This document shows, one piece after another, positions 22,671 to 30,589 of a DNA stretch of 37,746 nucleotides. The position numbers and the translations under genes were made by a program. The stretch comes from Gammaproteobacteria bacterium (GTDB lineage Bacteria > Pseudomonadota > Gammaproteobacteria > Ga0077536). The stretch covers positions 1 to 37,746 of the forward strand of contig JAIEQK010000074.1 in the NCBI GenBank assembly GCA_019747795.1, written 5' to 3'. The number at the start of each line of letters is the position of its first letter. Position 1 is the first letter of the stretch. The notes beneath the pieces were generated by a model. The model made no database searches. It was not told the DNA's origin and was given only the letters and a program-made list of their open reading frames with translations.

Positions 22671-23612
22671 TCAGTGCCTGGTCACGTGCACGACGCCGTC
22701 CAGCTTCCCGGCGATCAGTTCGCGTAGGCGGCTGGCGAGGTCGCGGAACAGCTGCCGTGAAGGTGAGCTGCGGCGCCACATCATGAAGTGTTCTCGATAC
22801 ATGTCCTTTTGCTCGAGACCCAACACCGCCAGACCTTCGCCAGGACGAATCTCGGCATGGATGTAGACCGCGGGCAGAAAGGCCAGGCCCATCCCCATGG
22901 TCACCATCTGCCGCAGGGTATCGAGGCTCGTGCCCTCGTACTGGCGGTTCACGCGCGCACCGTAGTGGTCGCAAAGCCGTTGGATCTGCATCTGCAGCTG
23001 GTCGTGGGCCTGCAACGTCAGGACCTCTTCGCCCTGCATGTCATTGCGGGTGATGCGTGCCCGGTTCGCGAGGGGATGGTCGCTGGGCACGACCAGCTTC
23101 AGCTCTTCACGGAACAGCGGGTCGACCGTGAAGTCCTCCTGCTCGGCCGGCAGCGGTGCGATGACGAAGTCGTACTGCCCCGAGCCCAGTCCCTCGAGCA
23201 GCCGGCGCGGCAGATCCTCGCGAATGTAGAAGCGCACGGCGGCGTACTCGCGATGCACGTCGGGCAGCACGTGGGGCAGCAGGTAGGGACCCATGGTGGG
23301 CGTCACGCCGAAACGGTAGGTGCCGGCCGGGCCGGCGATGAGCGACGCGACACTGTCCACCAGGCCGCGATACTCCTCGATCACGCGTCGCGCGCGCGGC
23401 AGCAGTTCGCGCCCGAGCGCGCTCTGGGTGGTGCCGCTCCGGTTACGCTCGAACAGTCGCGCGCCGAGCGCCGCCTCCATGCTCGCGATCTGCGCGGTCA
23501 AGGTCGGTTGGCTGACGTGCAGCTTGTCCGCCGCGCGTCGAAAGCTGCGCGTCTCGGCAACGGCGATGAAGTATTCGAGCTGGCGCAGCGAGACGTTGGG
23601 CAGTCGGCTCAT
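22671..23612 (-). CDS. LysR-family regulator, OxyR-like, lacking the peroxidatic cysteine
   Basis: A 313-residue transcription factor. The N-terminal winged helix-turn-helix (about 8-65) contains LRQLEYFIAVAETRSFRRAADKLHVSQPTLTAQIASMEAALGARLFER. The effector domain resembles OxyR in its GVTPTMGPYLLPHVLP, EEVLTLQAHDQLQMQIQRLC and GTSLDTLRQMVTMGMGLAFLP segments. The position of E. coli OxyR Cys199 is occupied by Gln (about 205), while the resolving-cysteine position (Cys214) is kept; it is the only Cys. It therefore probably senses something other than H2O2 by disulfide formation. AAGGGA precedes ATG 23612. It is divergent from carbonic anhydrase, sharing a 119-bp region that may hold its operator (GATAGG ... 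CTATCC). Confidence 0.88.
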   Translation of the reverse strand: MSRLPNVSLRQLEYFIAVAETRSFRRAADKLHVSQPTLTAQIASMEAALGARLFERNRSGTTQSALGRELLPRARRVIEEYRGLVDSVASLIAGPAGTYRFGVTPTMGPYLLPHVLPDVHREYAAVRFYIREDLPRRLLEGLGSGQYDFVIAPLPAEQEDFTVDPLFREELKLVVPSDHPLANRARITRNDMQGEEVLTLQAHDQLQMQIQRLCDHYGARVNRQYEGTSLDTLRQMVTMGMGLAFLPAVYIHAEIRPGEGLAVLGLEQKDMYREHFMMWRRSSPSRQLFRDLASRLRELIAGKLDGVVHVTRH

Positions 23613-23731: not shown

Positions 23732-24394
23732 TTGGACCACGTCATCAGCGGTTTCGCGAGCTTCAAGAAGCAAGTATTCCCGCAGCACCAGGAGCTCTTC
23801 TCCGAACTCGCGCAGGGGCAGCGTCCCGAGGTGCTGTTCATCACCTGCTCCGACTCGCGCATCGACCCGAACATGGTGACGCAGAGCAATCCCGGCGACC
23901 TGTTCATCATCCGCAACGCCGGCAACATCGTGCCGCCCCACGGCGGGCCGGCCGGCGGCGTGACGGCGTCCATCGAGTACGCGGTGGCCGTGCTGAACGT
24001 CGCCCATATCGTGATTTGTGGGCATACCCACTGCAGCGCGATGCACGGCGCCATCAGCCCCGAGGTCTTGAAGGAGCTGCCGCACGTGCGCGACTGGCTC
24101 GACCTGTCGCGCGCCGCGGTGGAAGTGGTCAGGCATACGCACGAGGGACCGCTGGACGCCTCGCACCTGCGCGCCATCACGGAGCAGAACGTGCTTGCTC
24201 AGCTCATGCACCTGCGCACCCACCCCCTGGTAGCGGCGCGCGTCGCCACCAAGCGTCTCTTCCTCCATGGCTGGATGTACGAGATCGAGAGCGGCGAGTT
24301 GCTCGCGTTCGACGAGCAGGCGCAACGCTTCGGACCCCTGGCGGAGGTCTATGCCCGCGTGATGGGGCGCGAGAGCGCCGCCGGCGCCGAGTGA
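23732..24394 (+). CDS. Beta-class carbonic anhydrase
   Basis: A 220-residue zinc enzyme converting CO2 and bicarbonate. Zinc ligands are Cys39 (in ITCSDSRIDP), His98 and Cys101 (in GHTHCSAM), with the Asp41-Arg43 dyad. The GDLFIIRNAGNIVPP and GGVTASIEYAVAVLNV segments are typical of beta-CAs. The start is TTG at 23732, chosen because the family N-terminus (HVISGF..F) begins there and GGAG lies 7 nt upstream; no ATG is available. Divergent from the LysR-type gene, which may regulate it. Confidence 0.93.
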   Translation: MDHVISGFASFKKQVFPQHQELFSELAQGQRPEVLFITCSDSRIDPNMVTQSNPGDLFIIRNAGNIVPPHGGPAGGVTASIEYAVAVLNVAHIVICGHTHCSAMHGAISPEVLKELPHVRDWLDLSRAAVEVVRHTHEGPLDASHLRAITEQNVLAQLMHLRTHPLVAARVATKRLFLHGWMYEIESGELLAFDEQAQRFGPLAEVYARVMGRESAAGAE

Positions 24395-24493: not shown

Positions 24494-25888
24494 TCAGAGT
24501 CCGAGGGCGGTGGTATCGAAGGTCGCGGCCTGGTAGTCGACCACGCTGGTGGTGTAGCCGAGATGCGCGTCTATATGACGGATGCGCGCGTCGGCGCTTC
24601 GCTCTTCGCGCAGGTTGACCAGGAAGAAGTCGCTCGCGCCCGCGCTGAAGCGATCGCGCTCGGCCTGTTCCATGAGCGCCGCCTGTTCCACTTCGGCCGA
24701 GGTCAGGCCGACGAACTCGCGCGCGGCATCGATGGTGGTCTCGAGCTTGTCGATCTCGATCGCCACCTGGTCCTGCATCAACTGGCGATCGAGTTCGAGC
24801 TGGCGCAGGCGCGACCGCGCCTCGGCGGCCATGCCGCGACCGCGACGGGTCTCGAGCGGAATGGAGATGGTGACGTCCACGAGCGTGTCGAAGTTCTCGC
24901 GGGTACGCGAACCACCGCCGAAATCCTGCCCGGCCTTGAGGCCCAGGTCGATGCGCGGCTTGAGTTCGTTCTCGGCCAGGCGCAGGCGGCCGCGCTCGCG
25001 ATCGAGGCCCGCGTCGATGCGCGCGAATTCCGGACGGCGCTCCAGCACCGCGGCGATGAACGCGCGATCGTGGGCGGGCAGCGGCGCGAGCGGTTGGAGC
25101 GCAGCCGGCGCGCGCGCCGGCGCGGGCTGCAGCGGTCTGCCCTCGCCGTCGCGCAGGTAGAGCGACAGGTCGATGGCGGCGGTCTCGAAGTCGCGCTCGG
25201 CGGTGGTCAGCAGGCTCTGCCGGCGCAGCAGGTTCTGGCGGTTCTCCACCACCTGGATGGCGGCGACGTCACCGGCGGCCACGCGCTTCTCGAGGCCGGC
25301 CATGCGCGCTTCGGCGAGCGCGGCCAGCTGCCGGTAGATTTCCACCCGCCGGCCGGCCGCGACCCAGCGCCAGTAGGCATGGGCCGCGTTGCGTTGCGTG
25401 ACGACCCGCGCGAGTGCCAGGTCGAGATCGGCCTCGGTGATGGCGAGCCTCGCGCGCAGCAGCTCGAAGCGCCGCGGATCGATGTCCCGATCGCGCCACA
25501 GCGAGAACACCACGCCGAAGTTGATCTCACCGGCGTCGTTGGTCACGCGTTCCTGCTGGTAGATAGGAAAATCGTCGTTGGCCACGCGGTAGCCCGCGCT
25601 CAGCTTGGCGTTGGATTGCGGCAGCGGCTTGACCAGCCGACTCTCCACCGAGCGGCCTTCGTAGTAGCCGCTCGCCCACAGCAGGGAGTCCTGCTCGAGG
25701 GCGAGATCGAACGCGCCCTGGGCCTTGAGCAGATCGCCCTCACGCGCGAGTTTCTCCTCCACCGCGCGCTGGATGCGCGGAAAGTGCTCGAGCGACGAGG
25801 TCAGCACCTCGTCCAAGGTGAGCGGCTCCACCGCCCAGGCGGGCAGGCAGATACAGAGCCACCCGAACGCGAGAATCCTGAGCTTCAT
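24494..25888 (-). CDS. TolC-family outer-membrane factor
   Basis: A 464-residue outer-membrane channel protein. Signal peptide (about 1-19, PAWA cleavage) then PLTLDEVLTSSLEHFPRIQRA, the usual first helix of outer-membrane factors. Two long helical halves follow, the second including RRPEFARIDAGLDRERGRLRLAENELKPRIDLGLKAGQDFGGG and VDVTISIPLETRRGRGMAAEARSRLRQLELD. It forms the exit duct for the adjacent HlyD/ABC proteins. Its ATG overlaps the HlyD stop (ATGA), indicating translational coupling, and it is the last gene of the operon. It converges with carbonic anhydrase across 99 nt. Confidence 0.9.
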   Translation of the reverse strand: MKLRILAFGWLCICLPAWAVEPLTLDEVLTSSLEHFPRIQRAVEEKLAREGDLLKAQGAFDLALEQDSLLWASGYYEGRSVESRLVKPLPQSNAKLSAGYRVANDDFPIYQQERVTNDAGEINFGVVFSLWRDRDIDPRRFELLRARLAITEADLDLALARVVTQRNAAHAYWRWVAAGRRVEIYRQLAALAEARMAGLEKRVAAGDVAAIQVVENRQNLLRRQSLLTTAERDFETAAIDLSLYLRDGEGRPLQPAPARAPAALQPLAPLPAHDRAFIAAVLERRPEFARIDAGLDRERGRLRLAENELKPRIDLGLKAGQDFGGGSRTRENFDTLVDVTISIPLETRRGRGMAAEARSRLRQLELDRQLMQDQVAIEIDKLETTIDAAREFVGLTSAEVEQAALMEQAERDRFSAGASDFFLVNLREERSADARIRHIDAHLGYTTSVVDYQAATFDTTALGL

Positions 25889-26967
25889 TTGGTGCCGGTC
25901 TTGGTCGGGCTCTCGCCCGGCGCGGCGGTGCCGTTCACCGGCCGCGGTGGGAACTGGTTCAGCTGGCGCCACAACTCGTAGCCCAGGCGCACGGTGCCGA
26001 GCTGGACCCAGGCCTTCGCCTGGCCGCCGAGGCGCAGGTAGCGCGCCTCGGGCCACGGCTCGTCCGGGTCTTCGACCAGCAGCACGCGAAACTTGCCATT
26101 GGGCGAGACCGCCGGGTCGAGGCCTTGCACGATGCCGGGAAAGGTGCCGAGCGCCGCGCGCGGCCAGCCGCTGAACTGCACCGCCGGCCAGCCTTCGAAC
26201 ATGATGCGCGCGCGCATGCCCGGCTGCACCAGCGGCGCGTCGAGACCGCTCACGTAGACCTCGACCGCGCGCTTTACGTGCTCGGGGGCGAAGGTGGCGA
26301 TCTCGTCGCCCGCCTTCACCAGGGTCGAGGTGGTGCCCCCCAGGATGCGCACGATGCGCCCGTCCTGCGGCGCGCGGACCAGCTGCGATGACTGGCGCGA
26401 CACGCCGATGTCCGCCTTGGCGAGCGACGCTCGCGCCGAGGCCTCGCGCGCGCGCAGCTCCTTGTAGCGGATCTGCGCCGACTCGAAGTCCTTGCGCGCG
26501 GCGAGCCCGTCCTTGAACAGGCGCTCCTGGCGGTCGGCGTCGAGCTTGGCGGTCTCGGTGGCGATGCGCGCCGATTCCAGCGCGTTGGCCAGCGCCGCCC
26601 GCTCCGCGCCGAGACGTTCGACGAAGCGCGGGTCGACGTCGAGCACTTCCACGATCGGATCGCCTGCGCTCACGCGACTGCCGTCCTGCACGAACCAGCG
26701 GTTGATGCGTCCATCCACCAGCACGTTGAGCGCGTGCGGTCGGTCGGCCGGGTTGAGCGCGGCGACCTGGCCCGCGCCGTAAGAGGTCTGCACCCAGGGC
26801 ACGGCGTAGAGGAGGGCGCCGGTCACCATCAGCAGTACCGCCAGTACGCCGGCGCCGGCGCGCAGCGGCGAGGGCGCAAGCGACACCGTGCCGCCGAGAC
26901 GGGCCACGTGCTCGGGACGGGCAAAGGGCACGACGGCGCGGAGCGCCTCCACGGTGCGCTTCACCAT
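25885..26967 (-). CDS. HlyD-type periplasmic adaptor (membrane fusion protein)
   Basis: A 360-residue inner-membrane-anchored adaptor. One transmembrane helix (about 38-60) follows an N-terminal cytoplasmic tail. The biotinyl-lipoyl-like first half is NVLVDGRINRWFVQDGSRVSAGDPIVEVLDVDP; a coiled coil (about 115-210) is followed by the second half, VRAPQDGRIVRILGGTTSTLVKAGDEIATFAP, and beta-barrel residues. ATG 26967 overlaps the ABC stop by 7 nt and is preceded by GGAGAG. It links the ABC subunit to the TolC-type channel. The periplasmic C-terminus ends in a Pro/Thr/Lys tail. Confidence 0.9.
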   Translation of the reverse strand: MVKRTVEALRAVVPFARPEHVARLGGTVSLAPSPLRAGAGVLAVLLMVTGALLYAVPWVQTSYGAGQVAALNPADRPHALNVLVDGRINRWFVQDGSRVSAGDPIVEVLDVDPRFVERLGAERAALANALESARIATETAKLDADRQERLFKDGLAARKDFESAQIRYKELRAREASARASLAKADIGVSRQSSQLVRAPQDGRIVRILGGTTSTLVKAGDEIATFAPEHVKRAVEVYVSGLDAPLVQPGMRARIMFEGWPAVQFSGWPRAALGTFPGIVQGLDPAVSPNGKFRVLLVEDPDEPWPEARYLRLGGQAKAWVQLGTVRLGYELWRQLNQFPPRPVNGTAAPGESPTKTGTK

Positions 26968-28679
26968 GGCGTGCTCTCCGCGCTGGAAGCGCGCGCGGCC
27001 AGCGCGGCACGCCGCTCGAGCTCGGCGGCGTCCGGCAGCTGCTCGAGATGATCGAAGTCCCACAGCAGGAACTGGTCGAACTGGTCGACCTCACGGCGCG
27101 TGGAGAAACACAACACCGTGAGTGCGGGCAGGCTGGCGAGGTGGCGCAGGATCGAACTGCGCGGCGCCAGCGAGACGCTGTCGAACAGCGGCGTCAGCAC
27201 CAGCATGCGCGGTTGGGCAAGCAGCGCGTGCGCGATCTTGAGCTTCACCATGCCGGCGAAGGACAGCGGATGGCCATAGGGTGTCAGGACCTGGTCCAGG
27301 CCTTCGGGCAGGGCATGGATTTCGTGGCCGAGGCCGACTATATCCAGCACCTCCCGCATGCGCGCGCGGGTCACGGCGGGCGCGGCGATCTCGAGGAACT
27401 CCGCGACGCTGCACTCCGGCAGGGTGGTGCCATCGATGACGTGCACCAGGTCGCGCAAGGTCATGGGGTCCGCCTCGCTCACTTCGTGGCCATCCAGCAG
27501 CACGCTGCCGCGGTCGGGTCGGCGATGCCCCAGCAGCAGGTCGGTGAAGGCCTTGATCTGCGAGTGCGAGCGCGCCAGCACCGCGACCTTGGCGCCCGCG
27601 GGTAGCTCGAAGTCGATTTGCCAGGGACCGCCGGGCAGCGCGAGGTGGACGTCCTGGCAGCGCACGCCGCCGCGCCAGTCGTCGAGGGGGTGGTCGCCGC
27701 GGGTGTCCTCCACCGGCATGCTGAACAGTTGGCTCAGCTTGGACAGCGCTGCGTAGAGCTCGTAGTAGAGCTCGAGGTAATAGCCGAGGCGGGTGAGCGA
27801 GGCGAAGATCGCCGACAGGATCAGTTCGGCCGCCACCAGCTGGCCAACGGTCAGCTGTCCCTCGATCACCAGCCAGCCGCCGACGCCGAGCAGCGCGGCG
27901 CTCGCACCAGCATAAATCGCGAGATAGCCCACCACCTGCGCGAAGGCGAAGTGGAAATGACTGCGATGTCGGGCCAGGTAGGCGTCGCGCAGGCGCACGG
28001 TACGGTCCAGCGCCCATTCGGTGGTGCGCGTGGCCTTGAAGAAACTGTTGCTGCGCGACAGGTCTTCCAGCCATTTCGCGCAGTCGTACTTGGCGGCCGA
28101 CATCGCCACCGCGGTGCGGGCCGCGGCGCTGTCGAGCACCCGGTACACGAGGTAGCAGACCAGGATCAGCAGCAGGTTGAACAGCAGGAAGGCCGGGTGA
28201 TAGAACGACGTCAGGGTGATGCCCACCACGCCCTGCAGCAACAGCGACAGCCCGCCGGTCAGCAGCGCCGGCAGGCTCTTCTGCACGGTCATGATGTCGA
28301 AGTAGCGGTTCACCAGCTCGTCGCGGTTGATGGTCTCCATGAACGCCGAGCGCGCGTAGATGAGGCGCAGGCTAACCGCCGACACCACGCGCGCGAAGAA
28401 GCGCCGCTCGAAGAGCTCCATCACGTAGGTCTGGGCCGCGACGAACAGTCCAGAGAGCAGCAGCAGCACGAACAGGATGGCCGAGAGCACCAGCACCGAC
28501 TGCAGCAGGGCGGTATTGGCCACGGTCGAGATCAGCACCTGCACCGAGAGCGGTACGGCCAGCGTCAGGGCGCTGACGGCGAGGCCGTAGACCAGCAGCA
28601 GGCCGTAGAGATCGCGCTCCGGCCCCAGCAACGAGCGCACCAGGGAAGACAGACCTGGGAGCGAGTCGCTGGAGGCCAT
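26961..28679 (-). CDS. ABC-exporter-fold protein with degenerate nucleotide-binding domain
   Basis: A 572-residue protein with an N-terminal exporter-type membrane domain (about 25-300, six helices) and a C-terminal domain clearly descended from an ABC ATPase. All catalytic motifs of the latter are lost. The Walker A position (369-377) reads ARSHSQIKA, with Ile in place of Lys. The Q-loop region is VIDGTTLPE. The signature is LSFAG (472-476) instead of LSGGQ. Walker B is MLVLTPLFD, so both Asp and the catalytic Glu are Thr-Pro. The H-loop is CFSTRRE without His. The surrounding fold (RGSVLLDGHEVS, LKIAHALLAQPR) is preserved, so the domain is kept for structure or regulation, not ATP hydrolysis. 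It is the first gene of an overlapping operon with HlyD and TolC. Confidence 0.88.
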   Translation of the reverse strand: MASSDSLPGLSSLVRSLLGPERDLYGLLLVYGLAVSALTLAVPLSVQVLISTVANTALLQSVLVLSAILFVLLLLSGLFVAAQTYVMELFERRFFARVVSAVSLRLIYARSAFMETINRDELVNRYFDIMTVQKSLPALLTGGLSLLLQGVVGITLTSFYHPAFLLFNLLLILVCYLVYRVLDSAAARTAVAMSAAKYDCAKWLEDLSRSNSFFKATRTTEWALDRTVRLRDAYLARHRSHFHFAFAQVVGYLAIYAGASAALLGVGGWLVIEGQLTVGQLVAAELILSAIFASLTRLGYYLELYYELYAALSKLSQLFSMPVEDTRGDHPLDDWRGGVRCQDVHLALPGGPWQIDFELPAGAKVAVLARSHSQIKAFTDLLLGHRRPDRGSVLLDGHEVSEADPMTLRDLVHVIDGTTLPECSVAEFLEIAAPAVTRARMREVLDIVGLGHEIHALPEGLDQVLTPYGHPLSFAGMVKLKIAHALLAQPRMLVLTPLFDSVSLAPRSSILRHLASLPALTVLCFSTRREVDQFDQFLLWDFDHLEQLPDAAELERRAALAARASSAESTPW

Positions 28680-28939: not shown

Positions 28940-28960
28940 CATATTTGACGACCATATTTG
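28940..28960. repeat. Direct repeat CATATTTG x2
   Basis: CATATTTG at 28940-28947 and 28953-28960 (13-bp period) in the AT-rich gap between the divergent ABC and barrel genes. It may be a regulatory site of the barrel gene. The 392-bp gap (28680-29071) contains no convincing gene. Confidence 0.4.
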
Positions 28961-29044
28961 CTGGAAGGTCGTTATATGTGCCGGACGCCCGTCGCTTCGC
29001 TGAGCAAGGCGACGTGCAACGCGGTTTTTCCGCGAGCCACGCCT

Positions 29045-29060
29045 TGGCACCCTTCCTGCA
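29045..29060 (+). promoter_or_regulatory. Possible sigma-54 promoter of the barrel gene
   Basis: TGGCACCCTTCCTGCA has GG and GC correctly spaced, and TGGCAC, but TTGC is CTGC. The predicted start (near 29071) falls at the GTG used here, so if real the protein would start at TTG 29096. Chance matches of this quality do occur, so this is weak. Confidence 0.35.
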
Positions 29061-29071
29061 GACAGCGCGCC

Positions 29072-30589
29072 GTGACCCAACGACGGGAACCTGCTTTGTC
29101 TCTTCGATCACTGGCCCGTGCCCGGGGCCTGCGTCGCCTGGCCGGCCTCGTTCTGACCGCCGGTCTCGCCTTCTCCGCCCATGCCTACGATGGCGCCTCC
29201 GGGGCGCCGCCGCCGCGGTCCTATGCCGTGAAGGCGCGCAGCTATGGTACTCATCCCGAAACCGATCCGCCGCGTTACGTGCGCAACCTGGGCGGCACCG
29301 GCATCGCGGCATTCGATGGACTCGACTGGCTGGACGCGGGCATGGATTTCCGCGAACGGATGGAATACCGACGTGATGATCTGCGCCGCCCGTTCCTCGC
29401 GACCGACGAGAACTTCCTGCATCGCACCCGCGTCTTCCTCGGCGTTCGCGAGCTGCTCGACCCGCTGCGCTTCGCGGTGGAGTACCAGGACTCGCGCGCG
29501 TCCAACAGCGAGTTCGCACGCGACACGCGCGACTTCAACGAGCACGAGCTGATCCAGGGCTATGTCGAACTGAACTTCGTCGGCGCGCTCGGCGCCGACC
29601 CACGCGGCAACCAGCGCCCGCTGCGCCTGCGCGCGGGACGCATGTCCTGGGAGTCGCTCGATCGCCGCCTGCTCGGCAACAACCAGTGGCGCAACACCAC
29701 CAACAACCACGAAGGCTTCCGCTTGAACCTCGGCCAGGAAGCCAACGACTGGGAAGTGGACCTGTGGGGTGTGCAGCCCATCCTGCGCGACATCGAACGC
29801 TTTGATGCCCGCAACCACGACGTGTGGTTCTACGGCGGCATCGTCAACTGGCGGCGCTGGTCCGAGTTCGTCACCGTGCAGCCCTACTACATGGGTCTAA
29901 GCCAGCGCGAACGCGGCACGCTGGTGCGCCGCGAGGTGCACTCGCCGGGTCTGCGCGCCTTTGGCGTGCTGCCCGGCACGGCGGCCGATTTCGACGTGGG
30001 GCTGCTCCACCAGTTCGGCCACGAAGGCGCGCGTCGCAAGTCGGCGTGGGCCTATCTGCTGGAGTTCGGTTACACCGTCCCGCACCCGTGGAAGCCGCGC
30101 TTCAGTGCCTTCTACGCCTTCGCAAGCGGCGATCGCGACCCCGAGGACGGGGTCGATCAGCGCTTCGAACGGTTCTTCGGCTTCGCGCGTCCGTGGTCGG
30201 CCGACGACAACATCGTGTTCGAGAACGTGAAGGTGCCGAAGCTCAAGGTGGAATTCGAGCCGCGTCGGGGCCTGGCCTTCGACTTCGGCTACGCGTGGTA
30301 CTGGCTCGCGAGCAAGCGCGATCGGTTCAACAACCTGCTGAACGGCATGAATGGCGACAGCCGCTTCAATCGCGATCGCAGCGGCGCGAGCGGTGATTTC
30401 CTCGGGCACGCCATCGACGGACGCGTGCGCTGGAAGGCCAACGCCCACGTCGACGCGACGCTCGGCTATTCGCACTGGACCAACGGACGCTTCGTGCGGC
30501 TGCGCCAGCAGGCCGCGCTCGGTGAAGCCGCCGGCAGCAGCGATTTCCTCTATCTCGAACTCTCGTTCAGCGCGCTGCCTCTGCTGTGA
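29072..30589 (+). CDS. Alginate-export-type (AlgE-like) outer-membrane barrel protein
   Basis: About 500 residues. A signal peptide (LRSLARARGLRRLAGLVLTAGLAFSAHA) precedes a large beta-barrel with alternating aromatic strands. Segments such as FRERMEYRRDDLRRPFLATDENFLHRTRVFLGVRE, RLRAGRMSWESLDRRLLGNNQWRNTTNNHEGFRLNLG and FSAFYAFASGDRDPEDGVDQRFERFFGF are typical of the alginate export family (Pfam Alginate_exp), whose members include AlgE and other anion channels. The family is broad, so alginate need not be the substrate. The start is uncertain: GTG 29072 or TTG 29096, both giving the same signal peptide region. Its last 40 nt overlap the end of the convergent VanZ-like gene. Divergent from the pseudo-ABC operon. 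Confidence 0.82.
   Translation: MTQRREPALSLRSLARARGLRRLAGLVLTAGLAFSAHAYDGASGAPPPRSYAVKARSYGTHPETDPPRYVRNLGGTGIAAFDGLDWLDAGMDFRERMEYRRDDLRRPFLATDENFLHRTRVFLGVRELLDPLRFAVEYQDSRASNSEFARDTRDFNEHELIQGYVELNFVGALGADPRGNQRPLRLRAGRMSWESLDRRLLGNNQWRNTTNNHEGFRLNLGQEANDWEVDLWGVQPILRDIERFDARNHDVWFYGGIVNWRRWSEFVTVQPYYMGLSQRERGTLVRREVHSPGLRAFGVLPGTAADFDVGLLHQFGHEGARRKSAWAYLLEFGYTVPHPWKPRFSAFYAFASGDRDPEDGVDQRFERFFGFARPWSADDNIVFENVKVPKLKVEFEPRRGLAFDFGYAWYWLASKRDRFNNLLNGMNGDSRFNRDRSGASGDFLGHAIDGRVRWKANAHVDATLGYSHWTNGRFVRLRQQAALGEAAGSSDFLYLELSFSALPLL

Follow-up and report, generated by a model that had tools for sequence, protein, structure and literature searches.

Transport driven by ATP is what defines an ABC transporter, and the 37,746-nucleotide stretch of gammaproteobacterial DNA analysed here (the window) raises the question of what an operon built like an exporter does when its ABC protein has lost the whole of its ATPase machinery. 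The window carries the complete gene set of type I secretion, an ABC exporter encoded together with an HlyD adaptor and a TolC channel, as shown in Table 1. The ABC and HlyD genes overlap by 7 nt and the HlyD and TolC genes by 4 nt (ATGA), and both the overlaps and the coordinates of the three genes had been given correctly in the earlier note. Adaptor and channel have clear Pfam matches and are unremarkable members of the HlyD and TolC families. An alginate-export-type porin gene (28958-30589; PF13372, 6e-96) lies upstream of the operon and is divergent from it.

Table 1. Positions in the window of the operon, of the parts of its ABC protein and of two neighbouring genes.
Feature	Position	Strand	Remarks
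ABC gene	26961..28679	-	HlyB-like pseudo-ABC half-transporter, 572 aa; ATPase motifs all lost
HlyD-family periplasmic adaptor	25885..26967	-	360 aa; HlyD_3 2.3e-10 (Pfam)
TolC-family outer-membrane channel	24494..25888	-	464 aa; OEP 1.6e-29 (Pfam)
TMD of ABC protein	27714..28646	-	residues 12-322; most conserved part
Pseudo-NBD of ABC protein	27045..27674	-	residues 336-545; fold retained, catalytic residues absent
Former Walker A, ARSHSQIK	27552..27575	-	residues 369-376
Former ABC signature, LSFAG	27252..27266	-	from motif alignment
Former Walker B, MLVLTPLFD	27180..27206	-	Asp-Glu replaced by Thr-Pro
Beta-carbonic anhydrase	23732..24394	+	Pro_CA 1.6e-48; convergent with the operon (TolC gene)
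LysR-type regulator	22671..23612	-	neighbour gene of the operon

The alignment revealed that the ABC protein lacks the Walker A Lys, the Q-loop Gln, the LSGGQ signature, the Walker B Asp and Glu and the switch His, with the Q-loop region reading VHVIDGTT and the switch region LCFSTRR, while all five motifs are intact in six of the six ordinary exporters aligned with it. The reading frame is clean. Both Pfam domains scored below gathering, with 23.5 bits for ABC_membrane (gathering 28) and 23.2 bits for ABC_tran (gathering 25), and the cut-offs of the curated type I secretion ABC models TIGR01846 (HlyB; 111 bits, cut-off 726), TIGR03375 (LssB; 104 bits, cut-off 693) and TIGR01842 (PrtD; 72 bits, cut-off 510) were not reached. 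Because the defining feature of a type I secretion ABC subunit, a competent ATPase with Walker A/B, LSGGQ and H-loop, is absent, the system was not filed as a type I secretion system, though it is built like one.

The AlphaFold2 model of residues 325-572, run with 28 relatives, reached a pLDDT of 94.7 and a pTM of 0.91, and superposed on the HlyB NBD (1xef) with TM-scores of 0.77/0.79 and 2.7 Å over 227 columns. HlyB is also the nearest solved relative by sequence (phmmer 9e-25), and HlyB in the HlyB/D complex is the best PDB match of the full-length model (Foldseek, 7sgr, 6.5e-24). A type IV (HlyB-like) exporter fold, with a 6-TM domain and an NBD, was obtained, the TMD part of the model being of lower confidence; since pLDDT is <50 at residues 278-299, the position of E285 was taken from the alignment only. 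The loss of all five ATPase sites from an undamaged frame with the NBD fold intact, as claimed in the earlier note, was therefore confirmed by alignment and by the structure comparison it had proposed. The absence of these residues strongly suggests that the pseudo-NBD would be unable to hydrolyse ATP.

A single-protein search detected members of the family in 10 of 58 relatives. The family profile, with which members mostly score 240-860 bits and ordinary exporters at most 95 bits (five genomes checked), found members among the sampled genomes of Gammaproteobacteria (11/369), Myxococcota (56/284), Bdellovibrionota (35/192) and Alphaproteobacteria (3/289), and further members were obtained from plasmids of about 15 sphingomonads and from Bacteroidota. 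The gene order is nearly always ABC-HlyD-TolC, with an HlyD gene adjoining the ABC gene in 62 of 63 loci and a TolC gene in 57 of 63, some of the absences being contig ends, so that the homologue collection proposed in the earlier note found both partners almost always in company with the ABC gene. This HlyB-like family is apparently undescribed: in the literature searched, with subscription papers outside its coverage, no description of such a family or system was found, in line with what the earlier note had stated. No relative was found in IMG/VR, and viral spread was rejected on that ground. Several Myxococcota members (L095, L082, L078, L077 and others) carry at the start of the ABC ORF an N-terminal extension of ~150 residues, which has no Pfam or PDB match, and a C39-like domain was therefore rejected as its identity. 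Six loci (L080, L083, L088, L091, L005 and L159) have a small winged-helix gene (WTFLSNHxHVL...) in the vicinity of the operon, and UspA-like genes are recurrent near the operon in Myxococcota (L082, L084, L095, L004 and L005).

The motifs have been lost to different extents across the family. Among 81 full-length members, the Walker A Lys is kept in 30, the Asp in 50, the Glu in 22 and the His in 26, while LSGG is retained in one and the Q-loop Gln in two; the last two are missing from almost all of the family, members with intact Walker A and B included. Three proteins closely related to that of the window (L001-L003) retain the switch His, as does L026. In a tree built from the TMD alone, with the NBD excluded and with support by the quick method SH-aLRT, the window protein falls in a 30-member clade (SH-aLRT 97) that spans several phyla and in which the Walker A Lys and the Walker B Asp are absent from all 30 members; degeneracy was also seen in 13 of 13 copies from sphingomonad plasmids that were aligned later. 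A sequencing or assembly error, which the earlier note had named as a possible source of the pattern, was excluded because of these shared losses. Sister clades range from near-intact to fully lost ATPase sites, and parsimony over the TMD tree gave eight changes for Lys, two for Asp, seven for Glu and 11 for His. Judged from the sequences, decay in the family is graded and repeated, because sister clades keep near-canonical ATPase sites, a pattern that the earlier note had overlooked.

Differences in conservation between the two domains were also observed. In ordinary exporters the NBD is more conserved than the TMD (identity 0.507 and 0.28), and in the degenerate clade this is inverted (TMD 0.436, NBD 0.266). 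The closest degenerate pair, L002/L003, has unsaturated dS and a dN/dS of 0.072 for the NBD and 0.032 for the TMD; the dN/dS evidence rests mainly on this pair, most others being saturated or nearly so at synonymous sites. Three TMD residues are specific to the family, H161 (100%), K197 (99%) and E285 in TM6 (98%), and are missing from all six ordinary exporters aligned. Recent decay was rejected in view of the clade-wide loss on the TMD tree, the NBD dN/dS and the degenerate plasmid copies. No close relative retains Walker motifs, and the loss is old, shared and retained under selection, which upholds the view of the motif loss as a selected change.

The conserved neighbours of the family are LysR regulators, DabA, DabB and beta-carbonic anhydrase, a context missed by the earlier note. 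DabA and DabB form the DAB complex of inorganic carbon accumulation, a two-subunit CO2 hydration complex coupled to the proton motive force (PMC13144422, in the portion available, which mentions no tripartite partner). A DabA or beta-carbonic anhydrase gene lies within 10 kb of the family gene in 17 of 115 genomes, giving 18 pairs against 1.13 expected under random placement with all 115 genomes counted (Poisson P 5e-16 before allowing for relatedness; P 3e-7 for about ten separate lineages counted by eye). In the control, 146 ordinary ABC exporters in 40 of the 115 genomes, including the 17 positive ones, gave three pairs against 2.05 expected. Short contigs account for some of the 98 genomes with no DabA or carbonic anhydrase within 10 kb, and only one of the sphingomonad plasmid loci examined shows the linkage.

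In several loci the Dab genes and the tripartite genes apparently form one operon. Co-directional ABC-HlyD-TolC-DabB-DabA runs occur in three Bdellovibrionota genomes (G754, G724 and G741), DabB-DabA-LysR-Usp-ABC-HlyD-TolC in G609, and DabB-DabA-ABC-HlyD-TolC, with a fully degenerate ABC protein, on a Sphingobium plasmid; the arrangement is divergent in four genomes (G395, G076, G798 and G614). The window and four further genomes from its family have a beta-carbonic anhydrase gene within 6 kb of the operon, at varying positions. One gammaproteobacterial genus has, in both of its species, a DabA divided into two ORFs (L069 713-2970, L070 832-3239) that adjoin the tripartite operon. The non-random proximity and the co-directional runs, both read from genome positions, suggest that the system is part of a module for inorganic carbon and pH together with DAB and carbonic anhydrase, of which module the LysR-type regulator of the window is a possible but unproven part. 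Co-location with DabA and carbonic anhydrase can also reflect shared regulation only, and ATP-independence is not a requirement of the carbon link, since the DAB-linked members L107 and L108 have intact ATPases.

The best explanation, to which as a whole we assign a probability of about 0.5, is a trans-envelope conduit in an inorganic-carbon/pH module that would not be driven by ATP. Within an apparently undescribed HlyB-like family of half-transporters, whose genes stand in the order ABC-HlyD-TolC, the members of the window's clade would have become pseudo-ATPases; judging by gene set and fold, the TMD dimer, HlyD and TolC would form the conduit, and the NBD may persist in folded form as a platform for the intracellular loops, with a possible role in ligand sensing. 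The conduit would work with DabA-DabB and carbonic anhydrase, and its cargo would most likely be a small ion or solute that takes part in CO2/bicarbonate/proton balance, moved passively or by means of an ion gradient, rather than a protein secreted at the expense of ATP. The transported species and the energy source are the weakest step of this account; the coupling of DAB to the proton motive force (PMC13144422, portion available) makes a passive or ion-gradient-coupled partner plausible. It is a tentative suggestion that the ABC-fold channel is the ATP-free, dedicated conduit of a DAB/carbonic anhydrase machine, perhaps ion-coupled through E285. Of the two options raised in the earlier note, a conduit that does not run on ATP hydrolysis of its own appears to be the best reading, because the loss is old, shared and selected and the HlyD/TolC partners are constant, while a borrowed ATPase found no local evidence.

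A rival explanation is a heterodimer in trans, in which the degenerate half would join a canonical ABC half-transporter from another locus, in the manner of TmrB and TmrA, and export would be ATP-driven. Heterodimeric exporters commonly have degenerate sites (PMC7756269; TmrAB in PMC8277102), and the genome of the window encodes ordinary exporters. However, no clade has a second ABC gene in the operon, and intact NBDs are absent from the neighbouring genes of 61 of 63 loci, for which a local partner was rejected. In TmrAB and TM287-288, which share the fold and the loss of catalytic residues in one NBD, the degenerate site binds ATP (PMC7756269) and faces a competent NBD, whereas the window protein has lost Walker A, Walker B and the signature alike, so that both composite sites would be crippled. 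Two genomes with Walker-A-less members (G430, L058; G542, L044), possibly incomplete, gave no match to an ordinary ABC exporter (PF00664) at E<=1e-15. We consider such pairing quite unlikely. Neutral decay towards a pseudogene would suit a loss that is graded and repeated and an NBD that evolves faster than the TMD, but is hardly credible against a loss shared across several phyla with frames mostly intact, start and stop codons overlapping, and an NBD that is well folded and constrained in dN/dS.

ATP-independent export of a peptide or lipid-like product, with the carbon/pH genes merely co-regulated through LysR-type regulators, would agree with the HlyB/PCAT-like fold and with the LysR genes found within 4.5 kb of the operon in 15 of 63 loci. 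Two Sphingobium plasmid copies (L170 and L171; Sphingobium baderi and TKS) have as neighbours the radical SAM maturases HxsB/HxsC together with genes for an S8 peptidase and an AAA ATPase, and peptide export would suit this proximity to His-Xaa-Ser peptide-maturation genes. We nevertheless regard it as unlikely, for no recurrent cargo, maturation or RTX gene was found among the conserved neighbours, and DabA, DabB and carbonic anhydrase recur in unrelated lineages in differing arrangements. A ligand-gated channel, whose pseudo-NBD would bind a nucleotide or other ligand through different residues and gate the pore, could explain why the NBD fold and its contacting loops are retained; it is decidedly improbable, as the residues of the former nucleotide site differ between members within the clade and no domain is less conserved than the NBD.

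Compared with known systems, the ATP-free conduit proposed here is closest in build to HlyB-HlyD-TolC, with which it shares three components, the order ABC then HlyD, the type IV exporter fold and the HlyD and TolC families. It differs in having no functional ATPase motifs and no recognised cargo gene, in a shorter adaptor, and in an ABC protein too short for the C39-like domain of HlyB. EmrAB-TolC (MFS) and the RND pumps are likewise tripartite conduits not driven by an ATPase of their own, but the inner-membrane part here has an ABC exporter fold rather than an MFS or RND one.

A widespread, selected family that has lost the whole ATPase and kept its tripartite partners would show the TMD conduit and its motor separated by nature, and near-intact sisters in the same gene context offer a built-in comparison. 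Named isolates carry the operon, among them Novosphingobium aromaticivorans DSM 12444 (SARO_RS19820-19810), which makes it testable. Through its link to DabA/DabB and carbonic anhydrase, the family may be a component so far missing from accounts of how bacteria handle CO2/bicarbonate and pH, possibly in heterotrophs too, and one that can be tested.
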